From a virus: a DNA stretch of 45,522 nt. Shown here piece after piece: positions 22,094-44,248 of the stretch. Made by a program: the position numbers and the translations under genes. The notes under the pieces are model-generated. The model was not told the DNA's origin. It saw only the letters and a list, made by a program, of their open reading frames with translations, and did not search any database. Every line of letters starts with the position of its first letter. Within the stretch, counting starts at the first letter, position 1. The stretch is from IMG/VR virus record IMGVR_UViG_3300048588_000260, positions 1-45,522 of that record. One strand, 5' to 3'.

Positions 22094-22750
22094 CTACAGC
22101 TCCACCACGTAACCAGCGAACTCGGCAAATCGGAAGAACTCCGCGCCGTCGAGGGTCTGCAGCTCGCGGAGACTCAGCGGCCGCTGGATTCCGGCCAGGC
22201 TCAACTCCTTCGTCATGATGCTGGCTGGCTCCGCTCCCGCCCGCTGCTTGCAGGCAAGGGTGAGCCGCCAGAGCGCGGTTGAAAGGTATCCTCCGGCCGG
22301 CTGGATTTTGTCCACTACGATCAGCGCGCCCCCGGGCCGGATCTTGCTTTTCAGTCGCGGGATGAGCTTGGCCCGATCCGTCGGCGGCAGGAACATCAGG
22401 CTTAGGAAACAGATCACGACATCGCAGGCCTGATAGTCGAAGGCCCTGGCGTCGGCCAGCACGACGCTATGGCGCTCGCCTTTGCGGTATCGCGTGACCA
22501 TTTCCTCGCTTGCTTCCACGCCCACCAGGCGCGCGCCGCGAGCCTTCAGCGTGGGCTCCAGGGCCGCGCCCAGGTTGCCCGTGCTGGCGCCGATGTCGTA
22601 AACCAGCCCGCCCTCCGGGATATAGTGGCGCGCGATTTCAACGGTCGCCATGGTGACCAGCTCGTACCACGGCAACTGCTCGCGGACGTGGGCGTCGAAG
22701 CCGTCGGCCACCTCCGGCCGCTTGAATGTCCAGTCCTTGGGGATCTCCAC
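22094..22750 (-). CDS. SAM-dependent methyltransferase (CmoA-like class I)
   Basis: 218 aa, GTG start at 22750 with GGAGG 6 nt upstream. Motif I is VYDIGASTGNLG (50-61), with the acidic end of strand 2 at VGVEAS and ADARAFDY later. The N-terminal FDAHVREQLPWYELVTM resembles CmoA-type enzymes that act on tRNA wobble uridine and bind SAM derivatives. As first gene of the late operon it may modify phage DNA, RNA or a small molecule; the substrate is not determinable here. Confidence 0.8.
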   Translation of the reverse strand: MEIPKDWTFKRPEVADGFDAHVREQLPWYELVTMATVEIARHYIPEGGLVYDIGASTGNLGAALEPTLKARGARLVGVEASEEMVTRYRKGERHSVVLADARAFDYQACDVVICFLSLMFLPPTDRAKLIPRLKSKIRPGGALIVVDKIQPAGGYLSTALWRLTLACKQRAGAEPASIMTKELSLAGIQRPLSLRELQTLDGAEFFRFAEFAGYVVEL

Positions 22751-22779: not shown

Positions 22780-22792
22780 GGTATTTTATACC
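22780..22792. promoter_or_regulatory. GGTA-N5-TACC motif (copy 1) between the divergent late and amidoligase genes
   Basis: GGTATTTTATACC ends just before the -35 of the plus-strand promoter. On the minus strand it contains TATAAA/TAAAAT, a possible -10 for the late operon without a good -35, so that promoter would need an activator. Two more copies of the 13-bp motif cover the -10 boxes at 22816 and 23712. Confidence 0.5.
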
Positions 22793-22821
22793 TTGACACA
22801 GCCCTCGGTTCGGTATATTCT
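22793..22821 (+). promoter_or_regulatory. Strong sigma70-like promoter of the amidoligase gene, predicted leaderless
   Basis: TTGACA (22793-22798), 17-bp spacer, TATTCT (22816-22821). The ATG follows after exactly 6 nt, so transcription should start at the A of the start codon. A GGTATATTCTACC motif (22812-22824) overlaps the -10, the right place for a repressor. Confidence 0.75.
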
Positions 22822-22827
22822 ACCTAC

Positions 22828-23682
22828 ATGAGCATCAACAACACATTCGGAATCGAAATCGAGATGGCGTCCATCCCGGACGGTTACAGCGCCCTGATTA
22901 ATGCGCTCCGCGCCAAGGGCGTCAGCGCCAGCTATGAGAGCTACAACCACAGCACGCGCGCTCACTGGAAGCTCACCACCGACGCAAGCTGCGGATGGGA
23001 ATTGGTCAGCCCGGTCCTGACAATCGGCGAAGACGCCTTCGAGGAAGTCCGTAAGGTCTGCGAGGCCCTGAATGAGTGCCGCGTGGTGGTCAATCGAAAG
23101 TGCGGCCTGCACGTTCACATCGGTGCCGCTCACTTCAATATCCGGGCGCTCAAGAACTTCGCCAAGAACTATCTGAAGTTCGAGGACTTTTTCGATGCGA
23201 TCATGCCCGAGAGCCGCCGCCGCGATAACAACCGCTTTATCGCCAGCCACCGCTCACGCTTCGGCGCTTACGATTCCGAGGCCGCCATCGCGACCGGGTT
23301 CAACCGGATCACCGAAGCCACCGACCTCCGCGCCCTGCAGATCGTCATGCAGCCGAACCGGGAAGCCTACTACGCAGTGAGCGAGCCGAGCCGGTACTAC
23401 AAGCTGAACCTCACCGCGTTCGGACGCTATCAGACGGTGGAATTCCGCCAGCACTCAGGGACGACCGACTACCGCAAAATCCGCAACTGGGTCCTTCTGC
23501 TGAACGAGTTCACTCTGAAGTCGGCAGTCGGCGCGCCGCGCCCCCGGAAAGCGACCAGCCGGGTTTCCACCGGCGAAGCGATGAGCCGCTTTTTCACCAT
23601 GTTCGGCATCGCCAAGGAACAGCGCGATTTCTACCGCGCCCGCTTCGCCGAACTGCACCGCAACCCACAGGCCCAGGGCTAA
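22828..23682 (+). CDS. Putative amidoligase (COOH-NH2 ligase, glutamine synthetase-like fold)
   Basis: 284 aa from ATG 22828; an upstream in-frame extension to 22726 is rejected because it crosses the promoter. Family signatures are FGIEIEM at 7-13, a Cys-Gly-Trp-Glu segment (TTDASCGWELVSP) at 50-62, CGLHVHIG at 92-99 and VEFRQHSGT near 212-220. These match the predicted amidoligase family, which is thought to join amino groups to carboxylates using ATP. Two cyclotransferase-like genes follow, as reported for this family in comparative genomics. The substrate (peptide tag, cell wall or metabolite) is unknown. Confidence 0.85.
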   Translation: MSINNTFGIEIEMASIPDGYSALINALRAKGVSASYESYNHSTRAHWKLTTDASCGWELVSPVLTIGEDAFEEVRKVCEALNECRVVVNRKCGLHVHIGAAHFNIRALKNFAKNYLKFEDFFDAIMPESRRRDNNRFIASHRSRFGAYDSEAAIATGFNRITEATDLRALQIVMQPNREAYYAVSEPSRYYKLNLTAFGRYQTVEFRQHSGTTDYRKIRNWVLLLNEFTLKSAVGAPRPRKATSRVSTGEAMSRFFTMFGIAKEQRDFYRARFAELHRNPQAQG

Positions 23683-23688
23683 TCGCCC

Positions 23689-23717
23689 TTGACCTCATCA
23701 AGCCGATACGGTACAAT
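23689..23717 (+). promoter_or_regulatory. Sigma70-like promoter of the cyclotransferase genes with GGTA-N5-TACC motif
   Basis: TTGACC (23689-23694), 17-bp spacer, TACAAT (23712-23717). GGTACAATATACC (23710-23722) covers the -10. The mRNA leader would be about 15 nt with a purine-rich ribosome site before ATG 23739. Confidence 0.75.
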
Positions 23718-23738
23718 ATACCCAAGAGAGCGAGAACC

Positions 23739-24170
23739 ATGAGCAACCAAAGCAACCCCACCGCGAACCGCGAACTAGTCTTCGTCTACGGAACCCTGAT
23801 GCGGGGATTCGGTAATCACCGCGTCATGCGCTACGCCCAGGGCGAGCTGCAGGCGCGCGCCACGGTCCCAGGCGAGCTGATCCACCTGGGCGGATACCCG
23901 GGATTCCGGCGCGCCCCCAAGGGCACGGTGCACGGTGAGATTTATGCGGTACCGCCCAGCGGATTCGGCCCGCTCGATTCCCTTGAGGGCGTCCCGAACC
24001 TTTACACCCGCGAGCGCATCCAGGCGACCACCGAAGACGGCCAAACGGTCGAATGCTGGATCTACGTCTACGCCCGAGACGGACGCTACGCCTACGGCGT
24101 CCTGGAGAGCGGCGACTGGCGCGACGAAGAGGTTAATATGCTCATCCGGAGCGTCCAGGAGATCGACTGA
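23739..24170 (+). CDS. Gamma-glutamylcyclotransferase-like protein (AIG2-like) 1
   Basis: 143 aa. Residues 14-23 VFVYGTLMRG form the substrate-binding loop of the GGCT/AIG2 fold; LDSLEGVPNLYTRERI contains the conserved acidic position (Glu) near 82 and WIYVYA follows. Such enzymes release 5-oxoproline from gamma-glutamyl amines or peptides. Right after an amidoligase it could reverse or edit the isopeptide product. Overlaps the next gene by 1 nt (TGATG). Confidence 0.85.
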   Translation: MSNQSNPTANRELVFVYGTLMRGFGNHRVMRYAQGELQARATVPGELIHLGGYPGFRRAPKGTVHGEIYAVPPSGFGPLDSLEGVPNLYTRERIQATTEDGQTVECWIYVYARDGRYAYGVLESGDWRDEEVNMLIRSVQEID

Positions 24171-24649
24171 TGGCCCGGTATTACATGGCCTACGGGTCCA
24201 ACCTGAACAAGGCCCAGATGCGCTTTCGGTGCCCCCAGGCGCGCCCCTATCGGGCGCTCCTGCTCTCCGACTTCCGGCTCGACTTCCGCACGGTCGCCGA
24301 CATCACCTACAAGCAGGGCGCGAATATTGCCATCGCCCTCTACCAGGTCACGGCGGCCGACGAGCGCCAGCTCGACCGCTTCGAGGGTTTTCCCTGGAAG
24401 TATGGCAAGCGCGAATTCCCGTTTGAAATCACGAACGCCGACGGCAGCACGGAGCGCGTCGACGGGTTCTTCTACTACATGAACGGCGGCGCGATAGCGC
24501 CCCCACGGCGCGAATATGCCGAGCGAATCGGCCGAGGGTATCAGGACTGGGGCCTCCCGGTCGATCTACTCCAGCGCGCCATCAAGCGCTCGCAGCGCGC
24601 CATCTACAAGTCAGCCAGAAAGGAACTTCAATGGCAGGGCCTGATCTAA
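24170..24649 (+). CDS. Gamma-glutamylcyclotransferase-like protein 2
   Basis: 159 aa. YMAYGSNLN at 5-13 is the diagnostic GGCT loop, and LDRFEGFPWKYGKREF near 66-82 holds the expected catalytic Glu. It differs clearly from its neighbour, so the pair is not a recent duplication. Together with the amidoligase it suggests synthesis and turnover of a gamma-glutamyl-type linkage. Confidence 0.85.
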   Translation: MARYYMAYGSNLNKAQMRFRCPQARPYRALLLSDFRLDFRTVADITYKQGANIAIALYQVTAADERQLDRFEGFPWKYGKREFPFEITNADGSTERVDGFFYYMNGGAIAPPRREYAERIGRGYQDWGLPVDLLQRAIKRSQRAIYKSARKELQWQGLI

Positions 24650-24855
24650 CCCCAGCGGAGCGCATTCGCGCCACCATGAAAGCTCACCGGCTCACCTACG
24701 AGGCGGTGAGCCAGCTCCTTCACGTCAGCAAGCATACGGTTGCCGCGTGGCTCAAGCCGACGACCACCAAGAGTCACAACCCCGCGCCTATGATGGCCGC
24801 GGAACTGCTCGAACTGAAGGCCGGGCAGGCCCCAGAATCTGGTCGGCTTCCGTGA
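24631..24855 (+). CDS. Small helix-turn-helix DNA-binding protein
   Basis: 74 aa, ATG 24631 with AGGAA upstream, overlapping the previous gene by 19 nt. AERIRATMKAHRLTYEAVSQ then LLHVSKHTVAAWLKP (about 9-43) is an XRE-like HTH. It is the last gene of the cassette and a candidate regulator of the GGTA-N5-TACC sites upstream. Its last 68 bp overlap the end of the convergent HAD gene. Confidence 0.65.
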   Translation: MAGPDLTPAERIRATMKAHRLTYEAVSQLLHVSKHTVAAWLKPTTTKSHNPAPMMAAELLELKAGQAPESGRLP

Positions 24856-25255
24856 TCGCGGCCTGCAGCTCGCTGGCCGTGATGGCGTCAATGCCGAACT
24901 CGCGATACATGGCCCGCGTCTGCGGGTTGCTCTCCAGCGCGAAGTAGGCCGCATCGCGGCCATAGACGGGAAACACGAGGCGCTCCAGCATGGCGCGCTT
25001 TGCCAGAGGCGGCCGGAGGCCGTCTTCGTTGAAGTGCGCTTCGCCAGGCCTCCAGCCGGTTTTCAGCAGCAGGCTTTCGAGCGTCTGCTGCCGGTACTTG
25101 GCCGGGCGCGCGGTCAGCATGATGACGTTCCTATCGCGGAGCAAGTCCACCAGCCAGGCCCGGTAGACCTCCTGCTCAATCTGGCGCGAGAACGGCGAAA
25201 CCTTCGTAGTGCTGTTCTCCACCAGGGTGTAGTTGAGGTCCAAGAGGATAATCAC
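24788..25255 (-). CDS. HAD-superfamily-like protein with altered motif I (DxN)
   Basis: 155 aa, GTG start at 25255 in a GTGA overlap. Motif I is LLDLNYTLVEN: the nucleophile D6 is present, but the usual second Asp is Asn (N8). Motif II T48 lies in VIMLTARP, and KRAMLERLVF could supply the motif III Lys. HAD enzymes are mostly phosphatases; the D-to-N change suggests reduced or different activity. Last gene of the ParB operon. Confidence 0.65.
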   Translation of the reverse strand: MIILLDLNYTLVENSTTKVSPFSRQIEQEVYRAWLVDLLRDRNVIMLTARPAKYRQQTLESLLLKTGWRPGEAHFNEDGLRPPLAKRAMLERLVFPVYGRDAAYFALESNPQTRAMYREFGIDAITASELQAAITEADQILGPARPSVRAVPRPS

Positions 25256-26760
25256 AGCTCGACTCCCAAACGCCGGCCGAAGGCGTCCAGCGCCTCGGCA
25301 ACCAGGCCCATCCTTGTGCCGTCAGGATACGGCAAATCGAACTCGAACACCAGCGCCTCCCGGAGCGCCCGCAGGTCCACCGGTTTCGGCCGCGCGCATA
25401 CCGCGTTCAGGTTCACGCTGTTCTTCGTGATCTTGACCGACTCGAAGCGCTCGGAGAGCAGCGCGTGGAACTCGCTTGGCTGGTGGTACTTCTGCACCTT
25501 GGGCGCGGCCTGGAAGTCGCCGAGGGTGATGTTGGGCTCGTAGGCGAGCTGGAAGCCGATGTAACTGCGGGAGCGTTCCGCCAGATACTCCCCGCCGCGC
25601 GCGCTGCGTATGCTGGCGTGATCGGCGTGCATCGTGACGGAATAGAGCTTGGTGGAAGGCGCGCACAGCGCGGAGCAGATCGCCAGGATCTTGCGGCGGT
25701 CCTCCATGAACGGGACCGAGTTGAAGACCGAGGCGATAAAAACCGAGGTGTACTGCACGTTGCGCCGGACATCGTCGAGGAAGGCGCGCGCAATCTCGAC
25801 GCTGGCTCGCTTGTCGATTTCGCTCCCGGCTCCCAGGTGGTAGGGCTCGAAGGCGGAAACGTGGACGCCCACCGAGCGAAGAATTTTGGTTTCCGTCAAG
25901 TGGCCCGCGCCGAAGTCCACCACGGAATTGCCGTAAATCTTCTTCCACCGCGCCAGGTTGGCCGGGGTGGTCATGTCGAACTCTTTTGCGTTCTCGGACA
26001 GCAGGAACGTGAAGCCGCGGCCGAGGCCTTTTCGCTGCAGCCGGGCGCGGCGGAATGAGTTGTACCGAAGCGTGTCCCGGTACCGAGTGTGCAGGTCGAA
26101 GTCCATCGACAGCAGGTTCAGCATCGCGTCCGACAGCCGCGCCTCATCCTCGCTCACCCACACAACCTCGACCGTGGAGGCCTTCTGCGTCGCCAGCATC
26201 TGCAGGCGGCCGAGGCCGTTCACGCAACGGTAGTCGCGCGTCGCGACGATGGGCATTTGCACGCCCTTGTTGCGGAGGGTCTTGGAGATGTTGGAGGCGT
26301 ACTCCACCCAGCGGCCGCTGTTCGCTTTCAAGAACGGGGCGATAGGCTCCACGCTCGGGCGCATGCAGCGCCAGAAGGCCTCCGAGTCCACCGCAAGGTC
26401 GGGCAGGTGGCGCGATAGGGCGTCGAGGTTGACGGCCTCCAGCGCTTCCGTTAGGGACTGCGGGGTGGAGCTGTTGCTCATGTCGTTCGTTCCCCGGTTG
26501 AACACGATATTCAGGGCCTTCCGCTGCTCCAGGCTCATCGGCTTCACGCGAGAAACCGGGATCCGCTTGCAGCCCATTCTGGAGGCAACCAGGTGACGCT
26601 GGTGGCCGGAAAGGATCTCGCCATCGGGGTCCGCATAGATTGGCAGCAGGAAGCCCAGCTTCCGCAACGAAAGCTCAATGAGGTCCAGCCGCCGCGGATC
26701 GGATTCGCGCGGGTTGTAGGTGGACGGCCGGACGCTGTCGATAGGAACAAGCTCAATCAC
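25252..26760 (-). CDS. ParB-like protein fused to a methyltransferase-like domain
   Basis: 502 aa, GTG start at 26760 with GGAGG upstream. Residues 1-65 form a ParB/sulfiredoxin-type domain (NPRESDPRRLDLIE, then EILSGHQRHLVA). A second, shorter ParB-like segment near 170-190 has MPIVATRDYRCVNGLGRLQ. From about 285 a Rossmann-type region begins with VVDFGAGHLTETK and continues FEPYHL, like a SAM-binding motif. Such ParB-like proteins commonly accompany phage DNA modification enzymes and nucleases. It may recognise or modify DNA; no target-base catalytic motif is evident. Confidence 0.7.
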   Translation of the reverse strand: MIELVPIDSVRPSTYNPRESDPRRLDLIELSLRKLGFLLPIYADPDGEILSGHQRHLVASRMGCKRIPVSRVKPMSLEQRKALNIVFNRGTNDMSNSSTPQSLTEALEAVNLDALSRHLPDLAVDSEAFWRCMRPSVEPIAPFLKANSGRWVEYASNISKTLRNKGVQMPIVATRDYRCVNGLGRLQMLATQKASTVEVVWVSEDEARLSDAMLNLLSMDFDLHTRYRDTLRYNSFRRARLQRKGLGRGFTFLLSENAKEFDMTTPANLARWKKIYGNSVVDFGAGHLTETKILRSVGVHVSAFEPYHLGAGSEIDKRASVEIARAFLDDVRRNVQYTSVFIASVFNSVPFMEDRRKILAICSALCAPSTKLYSVTMHADHASIRSARGGEYLAERSRSYIGFQLAYEPNITLGDFQAAPKVQKYHQPSEFHALLSERFESVKITKNSVNLNAVCARPKPVDLRALREALVFEFDLPYPDGTRMGLVAEALDAFGRRLGVEL

Positions 26761-28073: not shown

Positions 28074-28110
28074 TGCGCGCCGGAACCCATGTAGAATGAG
28101 TGCGGATGCA

Positions 28111-28158
28111 AGGTCTGCAAAACCTCGTACGCCGGTTCGATTCCGGCCCGTGCCTCCA
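28111..28158 (+). other. attP: attP core: 3' part of a tRNA-Cys gene (anticodon GCA)
   Basis: The segment reads as a tRNA from the anticodon arm to the end: loop CTGCAAA with anticodon GCA (28117-28119), variable bases, T arm GCCGG-TTCGATT-CCGGC (28131-28147), acceptor strand CCGTGCC and encoded TCCA. The matching 5' acceptor GGCACGG and D arm are absent, so it is not a working tRNA. Integrating phages often carry such tRNA 3' ends to restore the host gene after insertion. Confidence 0.8.
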
Positions 28159-28335: not shown

Positions 28336-28374
28336 GGCGCTCGAAAGTTTTTTCGGGAAATCGGCAATAGGGTA

Positions 28375-28403
28375 TTGCATACCCGTCTCACTAGTGATAC
28401 ATT
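28375..28403 (+). promoter_or_regulatory. Early promoter P1 with ACTAGTGATAC operator, predicted leaderless
   Basis: TTGCAT (28375-28380), 17-bp spacer, TACATT (28398-28403); ATG follows after 6 nt. The spacer and -10 overlap GTCTCACTAGTGATAC (28385-28400), one mismatch from the perfect 16-bp palindrome found at the other early promoters. Confidence 0.75.
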
Positions 28404-28409
28404 AGAAGT

Positions 28410-28607
28410 ATGAGCAAGACAGAAAACATGACGACGAAAATCACGATCAGCTACGACATGCGATTCACGAAGGGGGCCTGCAAGGGCATCGTGATCGCAA
28501 AAAAGGCGACCTTCCGCTGCATGGAAGACGCTAACGCGTTCGCCGACCGTGAAGGGATCGAGCAAGACGACTACGTCAACGAAAACATGAGCGTTGAACT
28601 CCGCTAA
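28410..28607 (+). CDS. Small early protein, unknown function
   Basis: 65 aa. The start ATG 28410 coincides with the expected transcription start of promoter P1, so the message should be leaderless; an internal ATG 7 codons later has no ribosome site either. Pattern is beta-alpha with KITISYDMRF, ending in an acidic tail. First gene of the 28,410-30,078 operon. Confidence 0.6.
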   Translation: MSKTENMTTKITISYDMRFTKGACKGIVIAKKATFRCMEDANAFADREGIEQDDYVNENMSVELR

Positions 28608-30078: not shown

Positions 30079-30428
30079 TCCATCAGCTCCGGAAAGCCAT
30101 CGCTGCCAGCCTTCACGGCCGGAGCTGGCTTTGGCGCTGGCGCCGGGGAAACGGCCGGCGCGGGTGCAGGTTCCTCATCCTGCTGCTGGCTCGGATCCGC
30201 GGGCCGCAGCTCCACCTCCGAAACCGTCCCACCTTCCGCCTCAGGGTGAATCATCACGGCGACCGCCTTTGAATTCAGCGTTGCCAGCGCCATGCCCGCG
30301 CCCTCTGGAGTGGCAGCAATCACGTTGACGAAGTCCCCCACAGCGTCTGCCGTTCTCAGCGAGAATCCCTCGTCGGCCTGGAAGGCCAGGCGGTGCCCGC
30401 TGGTCAGGATCACAAAGAGCTTCTTCAT
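30075..30428 (-). CDS. Small protein downstream of integrase, Pro/Ala-rich tail
   Basis: 117 aa, ATG 30428 overlapping the integrase stop. The first 75 residues are a beta-alpha domain (KKLFVILTSGHRLAF...VIAATPEGAGMALATL). The tail is a Pro/Ala/Glu linker. Last gene of the leftward early operon. Function unknown. Confidence 0.55.
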   Translation of the reverse strand: MKKLFVILTSGHRLAFQADEGFSLRTADAVGDFVNVIAATPEGAGMALATLNSKAVAVMIHPEAEGGTVSEVELRPADPSQQQDEEPAPAPAVSPAPAPKPAPAVKAGSDGFPELMD

Positions 30429-31489
30429 TGAATCGGCCTTTCCGCCTGGACCTCAGCCCAGGGCTTTCGCATCGCGTCCAGGCGTTCCATCGCCTGCATT
30501 TGATGTTCGAGGGTAGGGTGAACGTAGCAGAGCACGGCGCGAAGGCCGGAGTGCCCCAGAATTGCCGCGAGTGAGGCCAGGTCGATACCGGCCTGGGCCG
30601 CGCGGGTGGCGAAGGTGTGCCGAAGGTCGTAGAGCCGAAACACGAGTCCGGTGGCGATCAGAACTTCGCCGTGGGCGTGATCCATCCTCGCCCGAGGCTG
30701 GCCATCGTAGACCGGCGACGGAAAGAGCCAGGAGCCCTTTACGCGAGCCAGGCGCGCCCCCAGAATCGACTTGGATTCAGCGCCCAGGCGCAGGGTGCGC
30801 TTGGCCGACTTCGTCTTGCCGGTGCGAACGTGGAGCAGTCCGCGCTCCAGGTCCACGTCCTGGGCCCGGAGCCGAAAGACCTCATCCGGCCGAAGGCCCT
30901 GCAGCAGGATCAGCCGCGCGAAATCGAACAGGTCGGGGAATCGCTGGGCTTCGGCGAAGTACCGGCGCTCATCGTCCTCGGTCAGGATCACCCAATCAGT
31001 GGCGTTGACTTGCGCGGGCTTGCGGACCTCCCGGCAGGGGTTTTCCGTGACCCACCGCTGCCGGATGGCGTAGCGAAACAGCAGGCTAAGGTTGGAAAGA
31101 TCCTTGCGGATCGTGTTCGCCTTGACGTCGGTGGAGAGCCTCCAGGCCTTGTACTGGTCGATGTCGCCGGGCGTGATCGCAGCCAGCTCGAAGCGCTGGA
31201 AGAACAGCTTCAGGCTGGTAAGTGAGCCGAGGATAGCCCGGCAGGAGTTCGGCTTCTGATAGGTGGCCGTGACCCAGGCCTCAAATCGCTTGGCGACCTC
31301 ACTGAAGGCGATCCGCTTGGGGCGCGCTTGGTCCGGGGTAATCAGCGCCCGGGTTTTCGCTTCGCGTTCGATGCGCGCCGCCGTGGCGCGGTTTGATTCG
31401 ACGGCCTCCAAGCCGGTCGAACCGCTGAAGGTTTTCCCGGCGACCTGGAAGCGGTAATGGAACTTCCCGTTCTTTGAGCGGAGAGGCAT
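30425..31489 (-). CDS. int: Tyrosine-type integrase
   Basis: 354 aa. The N-terminal AP2-like arm-binding region (GKFHYRFQVAGKTFSGSTG) is followed by a SAM-like core-binding domain and the catalytic domain. Catalytic elements are Arg in LLQGLRPDEVFRL, a Lys in the TGKTKSAKRTL hairpin, YDLRHTFATR (first His of HxxR is Tyr), GHSG and the nucleophile Tyr in CYVHPT. No ribosome site precedes ATG 31489; it lies inside the excisionase-like ORF, suggesting translational coupling. attP is about 2.3 kb away. Confidence 0.92.
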   Translation of the reverse strand: MPLRSKNGKFHYRFQVAGKTFSGSTGLEAVESNRATAARIEREAKTRALITPDQARPKRIAFSEVAKRFEAWVTATYQKPNSCRAILGSLTSLKLFFQRFELAAITPGDIDQYKAWRLSTDVKANTIRKDLSNLSLLFRYAIRQRWVTENPCREVRKPAQVNATDWVILTEDDERRYFAEAQRFPDLFDFARLILLQGLRPDEVFRLRAQDVDLERGLLHVRTGKTKSAKRTLRLGAESKSILGARLARVKGSWLFPSPVYDGQPRARMDHAHGEVLIATGLVFRLYDLRHTFATRAAQAGIDLASLAAILGHSGLRAVLCYVHPTLEHQMQAMERLDAMRKPWAEVQAERPIQ

Positions 31490-36477: not shown

Positions 36478-36693
36478 TCAAGCAGCCGTTTGCGCTTGCG
36501 ATTCATCGGGTTCGATGCTGGACTGGGAAGCGACCGCTAAATCCTGGAGGATGGCCCGGGCCTTGTCGGTACGGCCAGCTCTGCGACCGTTTGCGAGCCG
36601 GGAAACGTAGGCCGGAGAAACCTCATGCTTCGTTGCGATCTGGGTCAAAAGGCCCCAGGTCGCTGGCAGGAATTTGGTACGATTATCTGGCAT
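36478..36693 (-). CDS. Small XRE-type regulator (Cro/CI-like)
   Basis: 71 aa from ATG 36693, chosen for GGAAAGG 7 nt upstream (ATG 36696 also possible). LLTQIATKHEVSPAYVSRLANGRR is an HTH with recognition helix near residues 29-38. No peptidase domain. It is the first gene of the leftward early operon and the palindrome GGCAA-N4-TTGCC lies in its promoter, so autoregulation is likely. It may be the lysogeny regulator or a Cro-like partner. Confidence 0.7.
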   Translation of the reverse strand: MPDNRTKFLPATWGLLTQIATKHEVSPAYVSRLANGRRAGRTDKARAILQDLAVASQSSIEPDESQAQTAA

Positions 36694-36716
36694 CATTTTG
36701 CCTTTCCATGCTGCCC

Positions 36717-36745
36717 AGAGTGACAAATTGGCGTCAGGAAGTCAA
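36717..36745 (-). promoter_or_regulatory. Probable promoter of the leftward early operon
   Basis: Minus strand TTGACT (36745-36740), 17-bp spacer, weak -10 CACTCT (36722-36717). The palindrome at 36746-36759 sits directly upstream of the -35, the same geometry as at 28007-28026. A related AAATTGGC half-site is in the spacer. Confidence 0.45.
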
Positions 36746-42029: not shown

Positions 42030-42058
42030 TTGAAGTCTTGTATCACTAGTGATACGCT
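42030..42058 (+). promoter_or_regulatory. Early promoter P4 with perfect palindromic operator, predicted leaderless
   Basis: TTGAAG (42030-42035), 17-bp spacer, TACGCT (42053-42058), then 6 nt to ATG 42065. GTATCACTAGTGATAC at 42040-42055. The promoter begins directly after the helicase terminator. Confidence 0.8.
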
Positions 42059-43828: not shown

Positions 43829-43850
43829 GGCGAGGCCTTCGGGCCTCGCC
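43829..43850 (+). terminator. GC-rich hairpin after the Cys-rich peptide gene
   Basis: GGCGAGGCC-TTCG-GGCCTCGCC, a 9-bp stem with a stable TTCG tetraloop, in the 50-bp gap before the next gene. No T run follows, so it may be a weak terminator or a processing/stability element. Confidence 0.5.
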
Positions 43851-43870
43851 ACACCTACCCAGGAGCTGCC

Positions 43871-44248
43871 ATGAAGTGCGAGTTCTGCGAGGCCGAGGCC
43901 TCGACCCAATGCAACGTAAGCGGCCGGCCTCACTGCGGCATCCATCTCTGCGCGGAGCACGTCGCCAACGTCTTCGGCACGCACCTGCACGCCTCAGACG
44001 GCAACCATCGGTTCGAATGCCAGGCCCAGTGCCGTCCCTGTGCCGAGCTGGAGCGCGTGACCCGCGAGGCGGCCATCGTGCGCGGGCAGAACCGATGGCG
44101 CGAGATCCGCAAAGGGCGCGGCCTGAGCCTGATCGAAGTCGCCAAGCGCCTCGGGGTCTCGGTCCCGCGCGTATCGAACCTGGAGCGGCTGCTGGCCGTC
44201 TGCACGCCCCAGGAGAGCAAGTTGTTCAATGAAAGGATTGCTAAGTGA
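43871..44248 (+). CDS. Zinc-finger plus helix-turn-helix protein
   Basis: 125 aa from ATG 43871 with AGGAG upstream. The N-terminal half has many Cys/His (CEFCEAEASTQC, CGIHLCAEH, CRPC), like a B-box-type zinc finger. The C-terminal half has an XRE-like HTH (GLSLIEVAKRLGVSVPRVSN). Likely a DNA-binding regulator of early or middle genes. Confidence 0.65.
   Translation: MKCEFCEAEASTQCNVSGRPHCGIHLCAEHVANVFGTHLHASDGNHRFECQAQCRPCAELERVTREAAIVRGQNRWREIRKGRGLSLIEVAKRLGVSVPRVSNLERLLAVCTPQESKLFNERIAK

Follow-up and report, generated by a model that had tools for sequence, protein, structure and literature searches.

The closest described relatives of the locus reported here are cassettes of podoviruses of the phiRIO-1, PSA-HP1, LUZ24, tf and phiEco32 type, which combine an amidoligase with a cyclotransferase (GGCT), a GATase and an ATP-grasp protein (Hardies 2013, as described in PMC5498523 and PMC11945000). 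The same papers put forward, as a hypothesis, that these genes create unusual peptidoglycan links, either blocking superinfection or preparing lysis (PMC5498523; PMC11945000). Salinivibrio phage CW02 is listed among the published members of this cell-wall module (PMC5498523), and the gene order of such a module is given for the LUZ24-like phage UFV-P2 (PMC3890496). A different interpretation comes from Phage-ZRK32, which carries amidoligase, GGCT, glutathione synthase and GATase genes and reportedly promotes growth of its host with nitrate or ammonium, an effect read as nitrogen metabolism (PMC10945688). Phages whose hosts are unrelated repeatedly carry amidoligase and GGCT genes, and no substrate has been demonstrated for them in the available parts of the literature, with none reported in those of PMC5498523, PMC11945000, PMC3890496 and PMC10945688.

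The window analysed here is the whole 45,522-nucleotide stretch of a 45.5-kb IMG/VR contig (IMGVR_UViG_3300048588_000260). A first-pass annotation made from the sequence alone had described an amidoligase, two GGCT-fold proteins and an HTH regulator near its middle, and all four genes were recovered with Pfam and PHROGs, the HTH match being weak; the motifs quoted for them (FGIEIEM, CGLHVHIG, VEFRQHSGT, VFVYGTLMRG and YMAYGSNLN) are read directly from the sequence. The features of the cassette are as follows.

22780-22792, no strand assigned: operator-like copy GGTATTTTATACC, 5' of the amidoligase -35, in the gap that separates the amidoligase from the divergent packaging genes
22793-22821, plus strand: predicted sigma-70-like promoter for the amidoligase, TTGACA-17-TATTCT, 10/12 matches
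22812-22824, no strand assigned: operator-like copy GGTATATTCTACC, covering the amidoligase -10
22828-23682, plus strand: GS-fold amidoligase (Amidoligase_2), 284 aa, by PF12224, phrog_2443, alignments and an AlphaFold2 model
23689-23717, plus strand: predicted sigma-70-like promoter for GGCT-1, GGCT-2 and the HTH gene, TTGACC-17-TACAAT, 10/12 matches
23710-23722, no strand assigned: operator-like copy GGTACAATATACC, covering the -10 of the GGCT promoter
23739-24170, plus strand: cyclotransferase 1 (GGCT-1), GGACT/YtfP type, VFVYGTL...LDSLEGVPNLY, 143 aa (PF06094, 5.4e-29)
24170-24649, plus strand: cyclotransferase 2 (GGCT-2), GGCT type, YYMAYGSN...LDRFEGFPWKY, 159 aa (phrog_2520, 3.1e-26; PF06094, 5.6e-6)
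24631-24855, plus strand: small HTH protein, 74 aa, final cassette gene and candidate regulator, on weak matches (PF13384, 1.2e-4, below cut-off; phrog_4779, transcriptional regulator, 3.6e-5)
28371-28383, no strand assigned: fourth operator-like copy GGTATTGCATACC, ahead of the early operon starting at 28410

Alignments and a structural model identify the first gene product as a GS-fold enzyme with its predicted catalytic set intact. It matches PF12224 above the cut-off (E 2.4e-38; 132.8 bits against a curated cut-off of 22) and phrog_2443 at 1.8e-34, and its AlphaFold2 model, predicted from an alignment whose rows held no phage records, reaches a pLDDT of 92.9. The best Foldseek matches of this model are YbdK (3.7e-5) and glutamine synthetase (5.5e-5), both with structural Z scores of 13-14 (VIA-align against YbdK: Z 14.0, rmsd 4.0, 241 aligned), while gamma-glutamylmethylamide synthetase, glutamate-cysteine ligase (GshA) and Dop/PafA appear at lower ranks. 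Residues G8, E10, E12, D52, E58, H95, H97, R189, N194, E205 and R207 are invariant in the alignments, with E10, E12, E58, H95, H97, N194, E205 and R207 invariant across an alignment of 44 amidoligase sequences; we take these to be the counterparts of the ExE, HxH and E-F-R elements of glutamine synthetase, an equation made by motif and position rather than by superposed structures. The enzyme is probably an ATP-dependent carboxylate-amine ligase.

The two cyclotransferases both match PF06094, and each has the YG(T/S) motif together with the catalytic Glu in LDxxEG. By sequence they belong to different families and a recent duplication is excluded, since they are 17% identical and are told apart by type-specific profiles built with the window sequences left out (GGCT-1: 98 bits for type 1 vs 29 for type 2; GGCT-2: 151 bits for type 2 vs 17 for type 1). 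GGCT-1 aligns with YtfP and human GGACT, matching the PDB sequences of YtfP (1xhs, 2e-11) and of human AIG2-like domain-containing protein 1 (3jub, 2.7e-7), and GGCT-2 aligns with human GGCT (2pn7, 5.3e-5). A tree of 59 GGCTs drawn from the collected loci places all 16 type-1 sequences in one clade with support 1.0, the type labels being taken from the profiles themselves. A short-peptide scan of IMG/VR returned no near relatives of either protein. Both are predicted, and probably able, to release 5-oxoproline. The first-pass annotation had proposed a check for loss of catalytic residues; the amidoligase model proved GS-like with its key residues invariant, and both GGCTs retain the catalytic Glu.

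Pairing of an amidoligase with a GGCT recurs in phages of many hosts. A GGCT lies at most 4 kb from the amidoligase at 11 of 15 loci in a first viral scan, 27 of 80 in a second and 9 of 12 in a phage group (8/11 without L016, the window's own record). These three sets pooled give 47 of 107 loci, or 46/106 without that record, vs 0 of 80 in a terminase-selected control, for which the Fisher p of 1.5e-14 overstates independence as the loci within each scan are related. Among genome loci the count is 8 of 80, the remaining 72 lacking a nearby GGCT and belonging mostly to Bacteroidota relatives. Most GGCT-bearing amidoligase loci hold one type only. In temperate Clostridia phages, amidoligases are paired with type-2 GGCTs. 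The unusual point of the cassette is that both GGCT families stand together, an arrangement found beside an amidoligase at only 2 of 186 other loci, both from Verrucomicrobiota (Opitutales L196 and Chthoniobacterales L223). Like the window, these two have both types next to the amidoligase, but their order is amidoligase, protein X, type 2 and type 1, whereas the window has type 1, type 2 and HTH and lacks protein X. Other phages with such a pair (Heliusvirales of Clostridia, Geobacillus GR1, Bacillus 055SW001 and Arthrobacter Waltz) likewise have a GGCT near the amidoligase, with one type in place of the window's two; no HTH or operator layout common to them and the window emerged.

Protein X, of about 80 aa, lies directly 3' of the amidoligase in 112 loci (median gap 6.5 bp; for example L196:6742-6981 and L223:1045-1365). 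Those of known organism come mostly from Bacteroidota, and many Bacteroidota relatives have the adjacent pair of amidoligase and protein X without a GGCT. It has no Pfam or PHROG match, and its model (pLDDT 94) has no PDB match at E <=0.001 in Foldseek; it is a candidate amidoligase subunit or substrate. At another locus, that of phage C75C1 (L022:5693-6586), a protein annotated as gamma-glutamyl cyclotransferase resembles a class-II glutamine amidotransferase in its N-terminal half and may be two module enzymes fused into one.

The phiRIO-1/LUZ24-type module and the window share a GS-like amidoligase and a GGCT, and GGCT-1 is closest to the GGCT of member CW02, which is accompanied there by an amidoligase, a COOH-NH2 ligase and an annotated ribosomal protein S6 glutaminyl transferase. 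Modules of that type also hold a class-II GATase, an ATP-grasp protein and a COOH-NH2 ligase and lie amid early transcription and replication genes, whereas the window cassette has two GGCT types and its own predicted operators, sits in an apparently temperate phage and lies between ParB-type and packaging genes. Judged by gene content, it is a relative of this module short of a full member, because a class-II GATase was not found (no match to PF13230 or PF13522 in a record that may be incomplete, with control genomes positive) and the other two went undetected, ATP-grasp in a search with one ATP-grasp family and COOH-NH2 ligase with PF14395, which matched nothing in the control genomes either.

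On one side the cassette stands back to back with leftward packaging genes, whose first start codon is at 22750 and which comprise a SAM methyltransferase and the small and large terminase; on the other it meets, tail to tail, a leftward gene at 24788-25255 (function unassigned) followed by ParB-type genes. Its orientation is thus reversed relative to both flanks. An arrangement apart from the virion operon, as had been described in the first-pass annotation, is rejected on this gene order, with leftward packaging from 22750 and ParB-type genes opposite. The SAM methyltransferase that heads the packaging operon (22094-22750) matches phrog_4752 and is annotated as a tRNA methyltransferase, and the gene at 25252-26760 joins a domain resembling a methyltransferase to a ParB N-terminal domain (phrog_5475, 1.9e-102, with two Pfam matches that fall short of the cut-off).

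The cassette is probably an accessory moron, because its site is empty in two terminase relatives whose flanks were read (L028 and L044), where no cassette separates the ParB-type genes from the small terminase, and because no amidoligase or GGCT occurs in the flanks, many of them short, of the 80 terminase-selected loci. Composition is uninformative as to foreign origin, cassette GC being 62.3% (GC3 72-84%) vs 63.8% for the window. In a Lachnospiraceae phage (Heliusvirales) an amidoligase-GGCT pair is likewise placed between a DNA methyltransferase gene and the terminase, and the insertion site may therefore recur.

The sequence points to a temperate phage, since the window encodes a tyrosine integrase (30425-31489) and has a probable attP core at about 28107-28157, which corresponds to a tRNA-Cys 3' half and ends in CCA. 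ARAGORN found no complete tRNA, and the tRNA-Cys-like half had no match in 387 genomes of the phylum of L223, in 199 genomes of the order of L188 or in IMG/VR. Megablast with the left 25 kb as query returned no close phage.

Control of the cassette by promoters with operators, as the first-pass annotation had claimed, agrees with the two sigma-70-like promoters (2 of this quality observed vs 0.6 expected) and with a 13-bp palindrome, GGTANNNNNTACC (GGTA-N5-TACC), found at 22780, 22812, 23710 and 28371, that is, three times at the cassette and once at the early operon. As a predicted operator this palindrome is well supported, because its cassette copies lie over or beside the promoters and 0.06 are expected in the window against the 4 observed; at least 4 arose in 0 of 100 shuffles. 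The fourth copy precedes the early operon, and the cassette would therefore be tied to the phage's own control. The simplest guess for the protein binding the palindrome is the terminal HTH protein, a candidate, with the products of the window's other HTH genes (36478-36726 and 43841-44248) as alternatives. The amidoligase ATG at 22828 has no clear Shine-Dalgarno and the predicted transcription start lies at or near it, which suggests that the mRNA may be leaderless. The second transcript reads as a coupled operon, with the GGCT-1, GGCT-2 and HTH genes overlapping end to end and the GGCT-2 start codon overlapping the GGCT-1 stop.

The cassette is best read as a reduced, self-regulated variant of the podovirus module that would write and erase gamma-glutamyl caps as an accessory of a temperate tailed phage, with the cell wall as its most likely target, a reading to which we give a probability of roughly 45%; the enzyme-level part of it, taken alone, is rather probable. 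The amidoligase would use ATP to link an amine to a carboxylate, for which the gamma-carboxyl of glutamate is the likeliest candidate, and the two GGCTs would free such caps as 5-oxoproline, GGCT-1 preferring, like GGACT, a gamma-glutamyl group attached to an amine or a side-chain amine and GGCT-2, like GGCT, one attached to an alpha-amino acid. The likeliest amine would be on a cell-wall peptide or precursor, so that the envelope would be altered in lysogeny or early infection, and a repressor on GGTA-N5-TACC, possibly the terminal HTH protein, would hold the cassette off or tune it. An analogy in the way of working is found in butirosin biosynthesis, where BtrJ adds a gamma-glutamyl cap and the GGCT-fold enzyme BtrG removes it, although BtrJ is an ATP-grasp ligase rather than a GS-fold enzyme and the pathway is that of a small-molecule antibiotic. 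Cyclotransferases release 5-oxoproline and require a free alpha-amino group on the glutamate; the GGCTs could therefore not open the normal D-Glu link of the peptidoglycan stem but only remove an added cap, which favours a writer and erasers acting on caps over degradation of peptidoglycan. Weighing against the reading are the podovirus module genes not seen in the window and the many amidoligase relatives, mostly of Bacteroidota, with no GGCT close by. The cell-wall target is borrowed by analogy from the published hypothesis for phiRIO-1/LUZ24-type modules, and the idea of superinfection control is plausible on the same footing and, for that reason, not new (PMC5498523; PMC11945000).

The first-pass annotation had likewise suggested enzymes that make and remove a gamma-glutamyl-type bond, and this chemistry fits the proximity of the amidoligase model to YbdK and glutamine synthetase, the alignment of the GGCTs with human GGACT and GGCT and the recurrent pairing. 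Its proposal of isopeptide tagging is without specific support, as the window yielded no small protein modifier in a search with protein X, and its interpretation as a whole is partly supported. Tagging of host or phage proteins with glutamate or a small protein, with the GGCTs reversing it, is a reading that we hold improbable: Dop and PafA, among the structural matches, are GS-fold enzymes and protein X follows the amidoligase in many relatives, but the former rank below YbdK and glutamine synthetase, the window has no protein X match, and no conjugation motif or target was found. Less improbable, though still unlikely, is a metabolic set that makes and recycles gamma-glutamyl amides or peptides for amine, nitrogen or glutathione-like thiol salvage in the infected or lysogenic host. 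The structural matches to gamma-glutamylmethylamide synthetase and glutamate-cysteine ligase and the growth effect of Phage-ZRK32 are consistent with it; however, that effect is tied only indirectly to these genes in the available part of the report (PMC10945688), and the scan of window proteins revealed no further gene for nitrogen or thiol metabolism.

With promoters of its own, a small size and an accessory position, the cassette would also suit moron-type conflict genes, whose products would modify or remove a modification on phage nucleic acid or a gamma-glutamylated molecule that the host uses in defence or signalling. Phage amidoligases are indeed listed under defence (PMC11318856), but the listing rests on the same cell-wall hypothesis and the window proteins scanned include no recognisable DNA hypermodification enzyme, and such a counter-measure seems very unlikely. 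A more elaborate form of the cap-writing reading, a reversible switch in which the amidoligase caps two classes of amine, each GGCT erases one, and the palindrome shared with the early promoter couples the state of the envelope to that of lysis and lysogeny, is a long shot. Writing and erasing of caps, the preferred reading, could be approached directly: the four genes with both eraser types are compact enough to be cloned whole, which can test whether the GGCTs undo what the amidoligase does, and on what molecule. Should the target prove to be the cell wall, the cassette would exclude superinfecting phages by a distinct route.

A second palindrome, TCACTAGTGA, occurs in the early region at 28388, 37363, 38311 and 42043 (three of the four sites exact and one with one mismatch, against 0.43 expected with one mismatch allowed) and is absent from the cassette. 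Its best copy is the 16-bp GTATCACTAGTGATAC at 42040, and it is probably the main early operator, a putative assignment. Near 28371-28397 the two palindromes, GGTA-N5-TACC and TCACTAGTGA, lie side by side.
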